Shown here one piece after another: positions 3,869 through 23,446 of a stretch of 36,725 nt of DNA. Under the pieces are notes generated by a model. That model was given only the letters and a program-made list of their open reading frames with translations, did not search any database and had not been told where the DNA came from. Numbering within the stretch: position 1 is the first letter of the stretch; each line of letters opens with the position of its first letter. Source of the DNA: Holophagaceae bacterium (GTDB lineage: Bacteria; Acidobacteriota; Holophagae; Holophagales; Holophagaceae); the NCBI GenBank assembly GCA_025361955.1, contig JANYIU010000253.1:1-36725 (forward strand), in the 5' to 3' direction. The position numbers were made by a program, and so were the translations under genes.

Positions 3869-4498
3869 CTATTCGTGCCGCTTGCTCCAGGCCACGGAGT
3901 CCAGGCGCCACTCGGCCAGAGAAGCCTGATCTCGGGCATCCAGCAGGCCTTTCTCCTGGGCGCGTCGCGCTAGATCATCGAAGGTGGCGAGTACCCGAAG
4001 CCTCACGCCCGAGGCACGGAAGGCCGCGTCTGCCTGGGGAAGCCCATAGCTGAACAGGGCCAGGACTTCCAGCACCTCCGCGTCTTCATGACGCAGGGCC
4101 GCCACGCATTTGATGCTGGAGCCGCCAGTGCTGATGAGATCCTCCAGGAGCACCACCTTGTGACCATCCACCTGGGGACCTTCCACTTGACGGCCCATGC
4201 CGTGTTTCTTGGGCTCGGGACGGACGTAAGCCATGGGCAGTTCCAGCAGATCGGCCACCAGCGCAGCCCAAGGGATACCAGCCGTGCTGGTGCCAGCCAC
4301 CAGGGTCGGCTGCGATTCGGCCGCCCGTTCCGCCAGAATGGCCTTGATCTGCGATCGCAGCGCGGGCGAGCCCAGGAGCTGGCGATTGTCACAGTAGATG
4401 GGCGATTTCAGGCCCGAAGCCCAGGTGAACGGCGACTTGGGCGAGAGTCGCACGGCACCAGCCTCGAGCAGACCGGATGCGAGATCAAAGACGGTCAT
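3869..4498 (-). CDS. pyrE: Orotate phosphoribosyltransferase
   Basis: PyrE joins orotate to PRPP to form OMP in pyrimidine synthesis. The start is ATG 4498 (209 aa), with AGAGGT upstream; the ORF track's 294-residue version runs back into leuS. The N-terminus FTWASGLKSPIYCDNRQL is the orotate-binding region, and PEPKKHGMGRQVEG is the flexible catalytic loop. VVLLEDLISTGGSS is the PRPP-binding motif; the usual DD pair reads ED here, which is seen in many PyrE proteins. It lies 32 bases after the leuS stop and 8 bases before the adenosyltransferase, so it is almost certainly in one transcript with them. Confidence 0.93.
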   Translation of the reverse strand: MTVFDLASGLLEAGAVRLSPKSPFTWASGLKSPIYCDNRQLLGSPALRSQIKAILAERAAESQPTLVAGTSTAGIPWAALVADLLELPMAYVRPEPKKHGMGRQVEGPQVDGHKVVLLEDLISTGGSSIKCVAALRHEDAEVLEVLALFSYGLPQADAAFRASGVRLRVLATFDDLARRAQEKGLLDARDQASLAEWRLDSVAWSKRHE

Positions 4499-4530
4499 GA
4501 GAGTACCTCTTACGTTCAGCGATGACCGGT

Positions 4531-6984
4531 TCAGCCCTTCACGACGATGCTTACCAGCTTGCCGCCGGGGGGTACCACCACCTTGACGACTGCTTTGCCG
4601 TCCAGGTGCTGCTGGGCCTCGGGACAGGCAAGCGCGGCGGCCTTGCGCTCTTCCTCGGTAGCGGAGCTGGGCAGGAGCACGCGGCCACGGACCTTGCCAT
4701 TCACCTGCACGACCACGATCATCTCGTCCGCCTGGAGCCAGGCGGGGTCGCACTCGGGCCAGGAGGCGTGCATGCAGAAACCGGAACCCTCCAGTTGCTC
4801 CCAGAGCTGCTCCGCGATGTGCGGCGCGGCCGGGGAGAGCATCTTCACAAAGATCTCCAGGCAGTGCTGCATGATCGGGCCGCGGCTGGGGGAGTCCGAG
4901 GGCAGGTCGTGGAGCGCGTTGGCAAATTCCATGAGGCTCGAGACCAGGGTGTTGAACTGGTAGCGGTGGCTCAGATCTTCCGTCACCTTGTGGAGGGTCT
5001 GGTGGACCTTCACCAATAGGGATTTTTCACCGATGGTCAACTGCTCCTTGGGGGGCACCGGCAGGTCAGTCACCGTGTGCTCATCCACCATGCGGCAGAC
5101 ACGCCGCAGGAAGCGCGTGGCCCCTTCGATACCTTCGAAACCCGTCCAGTCGATCTCTTTCTCAATGGGTGCCGCGAAGATCATGAAGAGCCGCAACGCA
5201 TCCGCACCGTACTCCGCGATGACCTCGTCGGGGTCCACAATGTTGCCTCGGGACTTGGACATCTTGAACCCGTCCTTCAGCACCATGCCTTGGCAGATGA
5301 GCTTGGCGAAGGGTTCGTCGTTGTGGGTGAAGCCCAGATCGCGCAGCACCTTATGGAAGTAGCGGGCGTAGATGAGGTGCATGGTGGCGTGTTCGATGCC
5401 ACCGATGTAGAGATCCACCGGGCCATAGGCGTCCCACTCGGCGCTGTTGAAGGGCTTGCGATCGTTCTTCGGATCCAGGTAGCGGTACCAATACCAGCTG
5501 GAATCCACAAAGGTGTCCATGGTATCGGTTTCGCGCCTCGCGGGCTTGCCGCATTGGGGACACGCGCAGTTCAGGAAGCTTTTCGAGGTCAACAGGGGCG
5601 AGGGTCCCTGGCCATGGAACTCCACGTCCTCGGGCAACGCCACGGGCAGATTCTCCGCCTTCTCGGGCACCACCCCGCAGTCCAGACAGTGCACGGTGGG
5701 GATGGGCGTGCCCCAGTAGCGCTGGCGGGAGAGGCCCCAGTCCCGGAGCTTGAAGGTGATGGCCTTTTCGGCCTTGCCGGCCAACTGAGTGACCATCAGG
5801 TCGATGGCGGCCTCGCTGGTCATGCCGGTGTATTCGCCGCTGTTGACCAATACGCCGAAATCGTTGAAGAACTCGCCTGCCTTGAGGGCCCGGCCATCCA
5901 TAGGGGCGATGACCGTGGGGATCTCCAGGTCGTATTTCTTGGCAAATTCAAAGTCCCGCTCATCGTGGGCGGGCACGCCCATGACCGCACCGGTGCCGTA
6001 GTCCATGAGGACGTAGTTGGCAGCGAAGACCGGGATCTTCTCGCCGGTGAAGGGATGGACGGCTTCAAGCCGCGACTTATAGCCCAGTTTGATGTCGGAC
6101 ATCAGGCGGTCTTCGCGGCTCATGTGGGCCACCTGATCGCAGAAAGACTGCAAGCCTGGATCGGTTTTGGCGGCCTTCTCGATGAACGGATGTTCCGTGG
6201 AGAGCACCATGAAGGTGACGCCGAAAAGGGTATCCAGGCGGGTGGTGAAAACCTGCACCCGCTCGCCATTGGTGAAGTCGAACCAGAGCTTGGCCCCCTC
6301 GCTGCGGCCGATCCAGTGGCGCTGCATGGCTTTCACATTCTCAGGCCAGTCGATCTGGTCGAGACCGCTGAGCAGCTCATCGGCGTACTTGGTGATGTGG
6401 AAGAAGTACTGCTCCATGGGCCTCTGCACCACAGGATGGCCGGTCCGCTCGTCCTTGCCGTCCACCACCTGCTCGTTGGCCAGCACCGTGCCCAGGGCCT
6501 CGCACCAGTTCACGTTGCGCATGGCGCGAAAGACATCGCCACGCTTCCACATTTGGAGGAAGAGCCACTGGTTCCACTTGTAGTACTCGGGGGTGAAGGT
6601 GGCGATCTCGCGATGCCAATCGTACGAAATGCCCATCTTCATGATCTGGCCCTTCATCTCCTCGATGTTCGAACGGGTCCAAAGGGCTGGGTGGATCTTG
6701 TTCTTGATGGCGGCGTTTTCGGCAGGCAAACCAAAACTGTCCCAGCCGATGGGATGCATGACCTTGTCGCCCCGCATGCGCCGGAAGCGCGCGACCACAT
6801 CGCCCAGGGTGTAGTTGCGCACATGGCCCATATGGATCCGCCCCGAGGGGTAGGGCAGCATCACCAGCATGTAGAAGGTCTTGTCACCAGGTTTCAGCTC
6901 ATCGGCCCGAAGCGCCCGGAAAGCCTTCTCCTGCGCCCAGCGCAGCTGCATCTTCGGTTCCTGGTTCAGGGGGTCGAACGCCAT
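4531..6984 (-). CDS. leuS: Leucyl-tRNA synthetase
   Basis: This class I synthetase charges tRNA-Leu and hydrolyses mischarged products. The ribosome binding site decides the start: GAGG directly abuts ATG 6990 but is spaced six bases from ATG 6984, so I use the latter (817 aa, normal for bacterial LeuRS). The HIGH motif appears as YPSGRIHMGH near residue 50 and KMSKS as FKMSKSRGN near 575. The editing domain shows FTTRLDTLFG and YGTGAVMGVPAHDERD. Paired CxxC motifs (CLDCG, CPQCGK) suggest a zinc-binding insertion. The C-terminal tRNA-binding domains are complete. It is the first gene of leuS-pyrE-adenosyltransferase and sits behind a candidate terminator of the upstream regulator, so it probably has its own promoter in 6985-7025. 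The 641-aa ORF on the opposite strand is a shadow. Confidence 0.97.
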   Translation of the reverse strand: MAFDPLNQEPKMQLRWAQEKAFRALRADELKPGDKTFYMLVMLPYPSGRIHMGHVRNYTLGDVVARFRRMRGDKVMHPIGWDSFGLPAENAAIKNKIHPALWTRSNIEEMKGQIMKMGISYDWHREIATFTPEYYKWNQWLFLQMWKRGDVFRAMRNVNWCEALGTVLANEQVVDGKDERTGHPVVQRPMEQYFFHITKYADELLSGLDQIDWPENVKAMQRHWIGRSEGAKLWFDFTNGERVQVFTTRLDTLFGVTFMVLSTEHPFIEKAAKTDPGLQSFCDQVAHMSREDRLMSDIKLGYKSRLEAVHPFTGEKIPVFAANYVLMDYGTGAVMGVPAHDERDFEFAKKYDLEIPTVIAPMDGRALKAGEFFNDFGVLVNSGEYTGMTSEAAIDLMVTQLAGKAEKAITFKLRDWGLSRQRYWGTPIPTVHCLDCGVVPEKAENLPVALPEDVEFHGQGPSPLLTSKSFLNCACPQCGKPARRETDTMDTFVDSSWYWYRYLDPKNDRKPFNSAEWDAYGPVDLYIGGIEHATMHLIYARYFHKVLRDLGFTHNDEPFAKLICQGMVLKDGFKMSKSRGNIVDPDEVIAEYGADALRLFMIFAAPIEKEIDWTGFEGIEGATRFLRRVCRMVDEHTVTDLPVPPKEQLTIGEKSLLVKVHQTLHKVTEDLSHRYQFNTLVSSLMEFANALHDLPSDSPSRGPIMQHCLEIFVKMLSPAAPHIAEQLWEQLEGSGFCMHASWPECDPAWLQADEMIVVVQVNGKVRGRVLLPSSATEEERKAAALACPEAQQHLDGKAVVKVVVPPGGKLVSIVVKG

Positions 6985-20153: not shown

Positions 20154-21179
20154 ATGAACAAGGATAGGAAGGTCCAGATCCGCAACAGCATGGCCGAGTT
20201 CCTGGTCTTCACCACCCAGACGGGCGAGGGTGGCATTGAAGTCCGCATCGAAGACGAAACCGTCTGGTTGACCCAGAAGCTCATTGCCACGTTGTTCGAC
20301 GTGGATATCCGAACCATCAGCGAGCATCTCAAGAACATCTTTGCCAGCGGTGAGCTGAAGGAGGATTCAGCTCTCCGGAATTTCCGGAATACTGCCGCCG
20401 ATGGCAAGCAGTACCTGACCAACTTCTATAATCTCGACGCCATCATCTCCGTGGGTTACCGGGTGAACTCCGTGCGGGCAACCCAGTTCCGACAGTGGGC
20501 CACGAGCATCCTGCGGGATTTCGCCATTCGCGGGTATGTGCTGGACAAGGAACGTTTGAAGAACGGTGCGCTCTTCACGAAAGACTACTTCAATGACCTC
20601 CTGGAGGAAATCCGGGAGATCCGCGCCAGCGAACGCCGGTTCTACCAGAAGATCACCGATATCTATGCCACGGCCATGGACTACCAGGCCGATGCCGAGC
20701 TCACGAAAGCCTTCTTTGCCACCGTACAGAACAAACTCCACTTCGCTATCCATGGCCACACCGCCGCCGAGTTGATCCGCGAGCGGGCGGAAAGCGAAAA
20801 GCCGCATATGGGGCTCAGCACTTGGAAGAACGCGCCCGATGGCAAGATCCGCAAATCCGATGTCTCCGTGGCCAAAAACTACCTTACCGAAAAGGAAATG
20901 AAGGCCCTGGACCGCATCGTCACCATGTACCTGGACTACGCAGAAGACCAGGCCGAGCGCCGCATCCCCATGACCATGGAGGATTGGGCCAAGAAGCTGA
21001 ATGCTTTCCTGCACTTCAACGAGCGCGACATCCTGGATCATTCCGGCAAAGTGGCCGCCGAGATCGCCAAGGCGTTCGCTGAAAGCGAGTTCGAGAGGTA
21101 CCGCATCGTGCAGGACCGGCTTTTCGAATCCGACTTCGACCGCATCCTGAAACAGTTGTCGGGCGAGAAGAAAGCCTAG
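20154..21179 (+). CDS. RhuM-family protein
   Basis: The 341-residue protein is full length for the family. The N-terminal module reads VRIEDETVWLTQKLIATLFDVDIRTISEHLKNIF, a DNA-binding-like region resembling KilA-N/Bro types. Then come NFYNLDAIISVGYRVNSVRATQFRQWA and a helical C-terminal half (FYQKITDIYATAMDY...TVQNKLHFAIHGHTAAELI). RhuM was named from a Salmonella pathogenicity island and homologues travel on mobile islands; the molecular role is not established, though links to toxin or defence systems have been suggested. I start at ATG 20154; ATG 20190 is an alternative. It lies alone on the plus strand between two minus-strand pseudogenes, and its stop touches the break point of the PAS gene, so it probably arrived by insertion. 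Confidence 0.88.
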   Translation: MNKDRKVQIRNSMAEFLVFTTQTGEGGIEVRIEDETVWLTQKLIATLFDVDIRTISEHLKNIFASGELKEDSALRNFRNTAADGKQYLTNFYNLDAIISVGYRVNSVRATQFRQWATSILRDFAIRGYVLDKERLKNGALFTKDYFNDLLEEIREIRASERRFYQKITDIYATAMDYQADAELTKAFFATVQNKLHFAIHGHTAAELIRERAESEKPHMGLSTWKNAPDGKIRKSDVSVAKNYLTEKEMKALDRIVTMYLDYAEDQAERRIPMTMEDWAKKLNAFLHFNERDILDHSGKVAAEIAKAFAESEFERYRIVQDRLFESDFDRILKQLSGEKKA

Positions 21180-22225
21180 CCATGCGTTCCGGCAGTCGCC
21201 TACGGTTCGCCCGCAGTTCCTCCACTGCCAGCTTGCGCGCGGATACATCCACAAAGCATTCCAGCAGCTTCTCGTGACCATTCAAGTGGATCCGCTTCAC
21301 CGTTTTCATGACGGACAGGTGGCTGCCGTCCGCCCGCACCAGCTCCTGGTCCGAGGTATCCACGAGGTGGCCCAAGTCGCACACTGGGCAAGCCCCTCCG
21401 GAGGCCGGGCACAGGAATGAGTGACAGCGCTGGCCCACCAATTGCCCCACCGGTGCGCCAAACAGGGTGCCCACATGTTCATTCACCCGCTCGATGACCC
21501 GCGTCACCGGGTCCATGATGACCACTCCAGCGAGAAGAGTGTCCAGCAGCTGACGTTGCAGGGATTCACTCTCCAGCAAGGCCTCCTCGGCCTTCTTGCG
21601 CTTGGTGATATCCGTAACGAAGCCCTCTACGAACAGGAGACGCCCTGCCCTGTCATAGGTCCCCCGACCTCGCTCCCATAGCCACCGGGTCTCCTGCGAC
21701 GGGGTTGTGATGGGGTATTCCTCTTCGAAAACGGAACGATCCCGCAAGACTTGCTGCCACTTCAACTGGAAGGCCTCCCGGTACTGCGACAGGATCAGGT
21801 CGGTGTAAGGAGAGCTGTCGGTCTCCGAGGAACTCCTCCGGCCTGTAACTGGTGAGCTCCCGGATGCCTTCACTCAAGTACTCCAGATTCCAGCCCGCCC
21901 CTTTGACGCTCCGGGACACGAAGCCAGGCAGGTTTTCGATCAGGTGGCTGAGCCTCCGCTCGCTCTCGCCGAGGGGGCTCTCTGCGTGCTTCCGCTCAGT
22001 GGTTTGGTGCAGCTTCCAGCGACCAGACATCAGCATGACGCTTAGGCCCAGGACCCATAGCAGACCCATACCCAGGATGAGGGCCGGAGCGTGAGAGCCG
22101 CCGAGCTGGGTGCAGTGGGCCGCAAGCCCAAGGATGACGGCCAGCAGGGTCCAAAGAAGCCCTTGGCGGAATGTGTGTTTCCGAAAGGTGCGATCAAAAA
22201 ACAGTTGCTTGAATGACTCGAGCAT
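21175..22225 (-). pseudogene. PAS-domain membrane sensor, frameshifted and truncated
   Basis: From ATG 22225 the protein has two membrane helices (QGLLWTLLAVILGLAAH and ALILGMGLLWVLGLSVMLM) and a first PAS domain (LIENLPGFVSRS...YRPEEFLGD). The frame is then lost near 21820 and resumes as PYTDLILSQYREAFQLKWQQVL...GFVTDITKRKKAEEAL. A second PAS (LLAGVVIMDPVTRVIERVNEHVGTLFGAPVGQLVG) has a Cys cluster CHSFLCP...CPVCDLG, possibly a metal or redox site. After ELRANRRRLPERMARL the reading runs into the antisense of RhuM, so any kinase or GGDEF output domain is missing. The break near 21175 coincides with the RhuM stop codon. Confidence 0.72.
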
Positions 22226-22352
22226 CGGGTGTCTCTGAGTCGGTAGGGAAGGCGGGTACTGCTGGTGCTCGTGGCATCATCAGGACGTGGATTGCCGTGG
22301 GGACAAAAGGCTTCCCGCGATCGACCTGGAGGCTTTCCTGCGAACCGGTCCC

Positions 22353-23012
22353 CTACCGGACGAATTCCGAGATGGAATTGATCTTGGTGGACATGGAGAG
22401 GATGTTGGCGTTGATGGTTTCCATCTTCTGGGTGAGGATCCGCACCTGGTCCGCCACTTTGTTCATGTGCTCGGCGATGACGTGAAAACCCTTGCCTTGC
22501 TGCCCAACCTTGGCCGATTCGATGCCAGCATTCAGGGAAAGCATCTGGAGCTGAGACATGATGGCCCGGACCTGGAGCAGGGTCGCCTCCATCTCATGGG
22601 TGCCCTTGGTGATCTCGCCTTCCACCTCCACGATCTTCTCCATGACGTGGCTCCGGACGCCCCCTGCCTTGCGCTCCACCGCCTGCATCATGAGCCTGGC
22701 CACCCGGCTGGGGATCAGGGTCGCTCCCAGAGTGGCAGCCTCGGGAGTGATTGCATCCGTGACGGACTGGACGCCGGTAACCTCGAAGATCAAATTCGGC
22801 TTCACCGTCCGGACCGCATCCGCGGCATCGGTGAAAATGGGGATCTGCAGTTCCCTGGCGAGCTTGCACCCAGGCGCGTCCAGGTTGGGATCGGCGATGC
22901 CCACCACAAGACCTGGCGACTGGCTGAAAAGGCGCAAGGCAGCGTCGCCCGCGGCACCTGCCCCGATGATGACCATCCGCTGCCCGCTCGACTTGATCTC
23001 GATCTCACCCAT
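22353..23012 (-). CDS. Rossmann-domain / mini chemoreceptor-signalling fusion
   Basis: This 219-residue soluble protein joins two unlike parts. Residues 12-110 are a Rossmann fold: MVIIGAGAAGDAALRLF (GxGxxG-type dinucleotide loop), VVGIADPN (acid at the end of strand 2, favouring NAD), then DAADAVRTVKPNLIFEVTG. Residues 115-219 are a short methyl-accepting-chemotaxis hairpin whose tip reads LSLNAGIESAKVGQQGKGFHVIAEHMNKVADQV, the CheA/CheW contact region. There is no membrane helix and the hairpin is far shorter than in ordinary MCPs. I infer a cytosolic sensor of redox state or nucleotide. GAGGGA precedes ATG 23012. The PAS pseudogene follows on the same strand. No cheA or cheW is in the window. 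Confidence 0.8.
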   Translation of the reverse strand: MGEIEIKSSGQRMVIIGAGAAGDAALRLFSQSPGLVVGIADPNLDAPGCKLARELQIPIFTDAADAVRTVKPNLIFEVTGVQSVTDAITPEAATLGATLIPSRVARLMMQAVERKAGGVRSHVMEKIVEVEGEITKGTHEMEATLLQVRAIMSQLQMLSLNAGIESAKVGQQGKGFHVIAEHMNKVADQVRILTQKMETINANILSMSTKINSISEFVR

Positions 23013-23446
23013 GATGTGGTCCCTCGCGCCCGCCGGAACAGCGTGTGTGGCTCTGCTTCCATCCTAAGCCATCGTGCAAAAATACACACTGCGCCCGCTT
23101 GGCAGGGCTGGCATTCGGGGCGGTAAGGAATGCCATGAATGGGGAAGATTATTCCGACCTAAGGCAATCGGCCCCCGGCGGGATCGTCGGCTTTCTGGAG
23201 CTCGGAAGCATCAGCGGTCATGCCTGAATCCAGTCAGCAGCTTCGGCCACCAGCAGCTGACGCTCCTTGCCGGTAAAGATTTGGCCTTGCTTTCGTCTGC
23301 ACCTTTTGGCCAGGCCCAGGATTCCCCCATCCATGAAGTCCATTGCTTACCGTTCACAAGCTGTTTCGAGTCGTTCAGCGGGAGGTGCGGCGCTCTATCC
23401 AAACCGGGACTATGCTGTAACTGGATTCTTTGGAGGCACTGTGGGC
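23013..23446. other. Intergenic stretch with possible gene remnants
   Basis: These 434 bases lie between the divergent Rossmann-MCP gene and lemA. On the minus strand a protein-like tail, GQIFTGKERQLLVAEAADWIQA, ends at 23218 and overlaps (ATGA) a 20-codon frame, MTADASELQKADDPAGGRLP, ending at 23159. These look like the leftovers of an operon whose genes have been deleted; I cannot assign a family. No promoter of either flanking gene is convincing. Confidence 0.35.

Follow-up and report, generated by a model that had tools for sequence, protein, structure and literature searches.

A gene of a Holophagaceae bacterium raises the question of whether a Rossmann domain joined directly to a miniature chemoreceptor hairpin constitutes a genuine receptor, and of what such a receptor might report. 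The gene lies on contig JANYIU010000253.1, in a stretch of 36,725 nucleotides that we refer to as the window. A preliminary description, made from the sequence, had proposed a 219-amino acid cytosolic protein in which a dinucleotide loop with an acidic strand-2 end is coupled to a shortened MCP signalling hairpin, and which could report NADH/NAD+ or a nucleotide-linked metabolite directly to a CheA array. The open reading frame, the GAGAAG loop at residues 17–22 and the acidic residue D41 agreed exactly with that description (Table 1). The Pfam model MCPsignal (PF00015) covered residues 121–205 with a score above its cut-off (E 2.6e-11; 44.1 bits vs. 34.6), and the tip LSLNAGIESAKVGQQGKGF occupies residues 158–176 of the 219-amino acid protein, confirming that the hairpin is shortened with its tip retained. 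The Rossmann half of the window protein alone was sub-threshold in Pfam (GFO_IDH_MocA, E 0.029). No linker separates the Rossmann domain from the hairpin, and the protein has no membrane segment, HAMP or adaptation helices, in line with the proposed cytosolic Rossmann domain and tip-only hairpin.

Table 1 Features of the Rossmann-mini-MCP gene in the window.
Feature	Position	Strand	Remarks
Rossmann-mini-MCP gene	22353..23012	-	219 aa, ATG start
N-terminal Rossmann domain, residues 1-105	22698..23012	-	closest match: NAD-binding domains of acylating acetaldehyde dehydrogenase and of Gfo/Idh/MocA oxidoreductases
GAGAAG dinucleotide loop, residues 17-22	22947..22964	-	all 19 members have G17, G19 and G22
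D41, strand-2 end	22890..22892	-	invariant in 19 members, kept in three distant relatives
Shortened MCP signalling hairpin, residues 106-219 with the stop codon	22353..22697	-	both arms short; lacks HAMP and a methylation region
Receptor tip, residues 157-185	22458..22544	-	most conserved stretch of the family
GAGGGA, ribosome-binding-like motif	23020..23025	-	7 nt upstream of the ATG, read by eye

Two other features of the window lie close by. A 279-amino acid open reading frame on the plus strand (22287–23126) is antisense to the Rossmann-mini-MCP gene and is probably a shadow frame. At 21016–22225 on the minus strand, two frames overlap, one of which encodes PAS domains; together they resemble a single sensor protein split by a frameshift or an assembly error.

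We searched 77 Holophagaceae genomes with a profile of the family and identified 19 members in 15 of them, distributed over 7 of 11 genera. All 19 were 215–226 amino acids in length and could be aligned end to end. The preliminary description had named two ways in which the architecture could mislead: the halves might be separate genes joined here by a deletion, or the gene might merely have lost a longer MCP domain. A Rossmann-only profile, applied to the same 77 genomes, returned the same 19 loci and, among them, no Rossmann domain without a hairpin. All 19 Rossmann loci have the hairpin in frame, and their lengths barely vary, which rules out an artefact of gene fusion or deletion. A truncated longer MCP is likewise ruled out for the Holophagaceae, as no relative in the family carries a longer MCP domain. 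Because the short fusion recurs across the Holophagaceae and also occurs in a distant bacterium, we conclude that it is a genuine receptor type.

Positive Holophagaceae genomes carry one to three copies of the gene, beside 6 to about 30 MCPs. In the window's genome, a second copy on another contig shares 34% identity with the window protein. A 79% identical orthologue (L009) is encoded in a Holophagaceae MAG that also belongs to the genus UBA1801, and forms with the window copy a separate, long-branched pair among the members. Comparison of these two genes gave a dN of 0.145 and a dS of 2.2, with a dN/dS of about 0.07 that is approximate owing to the saturated dS; their products are 85% identical in the hairpin and 71% in the Rossmann domain. 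This ratio and the retention of the fusion in 19 Holophagaceae proteins mark the architecture as no chance occurrence. In a genome of the same genus (L041, G342:C56), two different Rossmann-mini-MCP genes are arranged in tandem on the plus strand (3957–4637 and 4711–5370), 73 bases apart.

Beyond the 77 Holophagaceae genomes, a wider draw of 397 genomes was searched. It yielded two extra members from another Acidobacteriota family, L117 (1390–2403, minus strand) and L118 (1516–2196, plus strand), both of which keep the fusion with a much altered receptor tip. These two relatives retain LNAxIExARAG and have lost GxGFxVVA, the altered tip of L117 being LNAKIESARAGDAGNAFAIVVDRM, and the third Gly of their dinucleotide loop is replaced by Ala (GGGNAA, GGGRAA). 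A third distant member, at the locus L032 (NZ_CP154629.1, 298587–307183), belongs to Acetoanaerobium noterae (Bacillota); it has a standard tip and, at 260 amino acids, is the only somewhat longer relative. The strand-2 Asp is kept in L032, L117 and L118. The scan of genome contigs reached close relatives only, and L032 came from a plasmid set, which returned only this gene when queried with the Rossmann halves of the distant members. No Rossmann-mini-MCP relatives were found among viral contigs. The 2.6-Mb NZ_CP154629.1 is labelled as an Acetoanaerobium noterae plasmid and contains tyrS-like and feoB-like genes; it may be a mislabelled chromosome.

The Rossmann half was then compared with known families and structures. 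GFO_IDH_MocA was matched by 16 of the 19 Holophagaceae members at E ≤ 0.1 (best 1.5e-7), and family members also matched NAD_binding_3. Against the PDB, the Rossmann-only profile matched the NAD domain of an acylating acetaldehyde dehydrogenase (4lrs, E 2e-8) as well as Gfo/Idh/MocA enzymes. The NAD domains of these oxidoreductases are thus sequence relatives of the Rossmann half, but the mini-MCP protein lacks their catalytic domain, its Rossmann domain of ~105 residues leading directly into the hairpin. Given this homology to NAD domains in the PDB and the invariance of GxGxxG and D41 in 19 of 19 members, binding of an adenine dinucleotide by the Rossmann domain seems likely, and D41 would represent an NAD-type rather than an NADP-type acid.

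Acylating acetaldehyde dehydrogenases use both NAD and CoA. Their position as the closest PDB relatives raises an alternative in which the ligand sensed is not NAD(H) but CoA, an acyl-CoA metabolite or another nucleotide, with an unchanged output to CheA. In several genera, a gene of the AMP-binding acyl-CoA synthetase type lies close to the family gene and points in the same direction. However, this neighbour is neither co-transcribed nor in an operon with the family gene, and NAD-type Rossmann folds typically have an acid like D41; we consider such a ligand in place of NAD(H) quite unlikely.

We next consider the hairpin, which was recognized by PF00015 in all 19 members. In the 19-member alignment, mean column entropy was 0.35–0.84 bits around the tip (residues 151–195), with 0.35–0.54 bits for the tip itself, and 1.2–2.0 bits over most other columns. 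Residues M157, L160, N161, I164, E165, K168, G170, G173, G175, F176, V178 and A180 were invariant in all 19. Aligned by eye, those between positions 160 and 180 correspond to Tsr L380, N381, V384, E385, R388, G390, G393, G395, F396, V398 and A400, with I at the V384 position and K at the R388 position, and M157 replaces Tsr I377 throughout. We take Tsr residues 377, 380, 381, 384, 385, 388, 396 and 398 to be trimer or CheW contacts. Lysine at the Tsr R388 position was also found in all 26 extractable host MCP tips, in which residue 391 is variable; the tip of the mini-hairpin therefore resembles those of host MCPs at 388 and 391, and the loss of Glu391 or Arg388 is no sign of a dead tip. Nevertheless, the family tip is not a plain copy of the host MCP tip, because both flanks differ: SMQML precedes it in the family vs. 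QTNLL in host MCPs, and [HQN]-[ML]-x-K-[SV] lies beyond it vs. E-V-R-K-L-A.

The arms of the hairpin end about 48 residues from the tip on the C-terminal side and about 70 residues from it on the N-terminal side, whereas about 132 residues separate the tip from the C-terminus in most host MCPs. The canonical methylation sites of Tsr are about 80–100 residues from the tip; at this distance, the mini-MCP protein has its Rossmann domain on one side and has already ended on the other. With arms too short for Tsr methylation positions, the family is not methyl-accepting in the strict sense.

A protein without a methylation region, and hence without adaptation, might be a modulator of the array rather than a sensor. 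Its mini hairpin would insert into or cap receptor trimers, compete for CheW/CheA sites and tune array size or kinase activity, while the Rossmann domain would serve mainly as a dimer platform with a slowly changing ligand. The low copy number relative to the MCPs of the same genomes is consistent with this role, as is the much stronger conservation of the tip compared with the Rossmann half, expected if tip contacts were the main function. On the other hand, the persistence of GxGxxG and D41 in 19 divergent members suggests that ligand binding has been selected, and we consider a modulatory role unlikely.

Contact between the hairpin and the chemotaxis kinase complex has a structural precedent. 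Over profile positions 133–210, the family profile matched chains of the Tm14 fragment in 3ur1 (3ur1_C, E 2.1e-12) and 4jpb (4jpb_B, E 2.6e-12), fragments of 85–90 amino acids. In the structure 4JPB, the Tm14 fragment forms a complex with CheA P4/P5 and CheW (PMC6746300). Because that complex uses a fragment of similar size, the hairpin span is able in principle to contact CheW and CheA. Judged from the tip residues and from this analogy, the protein probably docks into the CheA/CheW baseplate.

We utilized AlphaFold2 to predict the structure from an alignment of two sequences, the window protein and L009. The resulting model was of low confidence (mean pLDDT 60.9, pTM = 0.33) and contained strands at residues 12–17 and 35–40 and helices at residues 102–169 and 175–218. 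These predicted elements agree, weakly, with a hairpin that continues from a Rossmann domain. A Foldseek search with the model gave no match at E ≤ 0.001, and the top ones, at E about 1e-3, include dehydrogenase Rossmann domains.

As for chemotaxis partners, CheW was encoded in all 17 positive genomes, and one CheW-less Holophagaceae genome (G182) was also without the family. This co-occurrence is weak evidence, because nearly every motile genome has CheW. No CheW gene was found near any family member: CheW genes were on other contigs or, in single-contig genomes, at a distance of about 100 kb or more. The case for a link to the array is thus made by the tip residues rather than by gene order. 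Single MCP genes were located a few kb from the family gene in L009 and G326 only. The tex gene adjoins the family gene in divergent orientation in seven loci, including that of the second copy in the window's genome. Nothing was operonic at the family loci, and no operon context that would name a ligand was found there.

In the window's genome (G000), CheW domains were confined to one contig (C152), on which a CheA-like frame of 720 amino acids carries a CheW domain. The same contig contains, beside CheA and a CheY-like gene, a 508-amino acid frame with three tandem CheW domains (L056, 8213–9739, minus strand). Triple-CheW open frames of 503–549 amino acids were present in most Holophagaceae genomes examined.

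The separation of all members from CheW genes would also suit a hairpin that has no input to CheA and acts as a receptor-derived oligomerisation module of a regulator working elsewhere, for example in metabolism or on another signalling protein. Such a role would fit the motif beyond the tip, which departs from the usual MCP form, and the relatives in another Acidobacteriota family, where the fusion is kept on a much altered tip (LNAKIESARAGDAGNAFAIVVDRM). Yet the Holophagaceae members show no variation at the trimer- and CheW-contact positions, a constraint beyond what a generic coiled coil would need, and we regard an output away from CheA as distinctly unlikely for the family. Caution over CheA coupling is advisable in view of the altered tips of L117 and L118.

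The explanation we favor, with a probability of roughly 0.5, is a soluble, non-adapting miniature chemoreceptor that passes a dinucleotide-linked metabolic state to the CheA baseplate. The ligand of the Rossmann domain would be an adenine dinucleotide, with NAD(H) the most likely one, or a related metabolite, and the last helix of the domain would continue straight into the MCP four-helix bundle of the dimer. A change of bound ligand would shift the hairpin, the shift would be read by CheW/CheA at the tip, and the output of CheA would bias the flagellar motor in response to the redox or carbon state inside the cell. The assignment of NAD(H) or redox as the signal is tentative, and we place it somewhat below an even chance. 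We also suggest, as a possibility that falls a little short of probable, that these proteins form a distinct and unnamed class of tip-only, methylation-independent chemoreceptors with dinucleotide input, present in at least two phyla, which would convey NAD(H) or a related metabolic state straight to the CheA baseplate while lacking membrane, HAMP and adaptation modules. We found no description of a Rossmann-MCP architecture in the open-access papers searched, a set outside which the main reviews of cytoplasmic chemoreceptors lie.

If the favored explanation is true, the protein would be about the smallest natural coupler of a receptor to a kinase, in effect the crystallographers' tip fragment occurring in nature and equipped with a sensor. 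It would provide a direct test of whether methylation helices are needed for receptor control of CheA. It would also test whether bacteria use a dedicated Rossmann receptor to steer by their internal NAD-linked state, and not only flavin-PAS receptors such as Aer.

Among known systems, the family shares the hairpin tip LNAxIExAKxGxxGxGFxVxA with the MCP signalling domain PF00015, and differs from host MCPs in having no HAMP, transmembrane helices or methylation region. Like the cytoplasmic chemoreceptors TlpD, Tm14 and FrzCD, it is soluble with an intracellular input, but their signalling bundles are longer than that of the family, whose hairpin is similar in size to the Tm14 fragment in 4JPB. 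To our knowledge, no Rossmann input is known among cytoplasmic chemoreceptors such as these. The Aer-type (PAS-FAD) energy-taxis receptors offer a parallel in function if the NAD(H) reading is true, since both would then convey internal redox to CheA. Aer, according to PMC9668731, senses redox via FAD in a PAS domain, whereas the family differs from it in both fold and cofactor.
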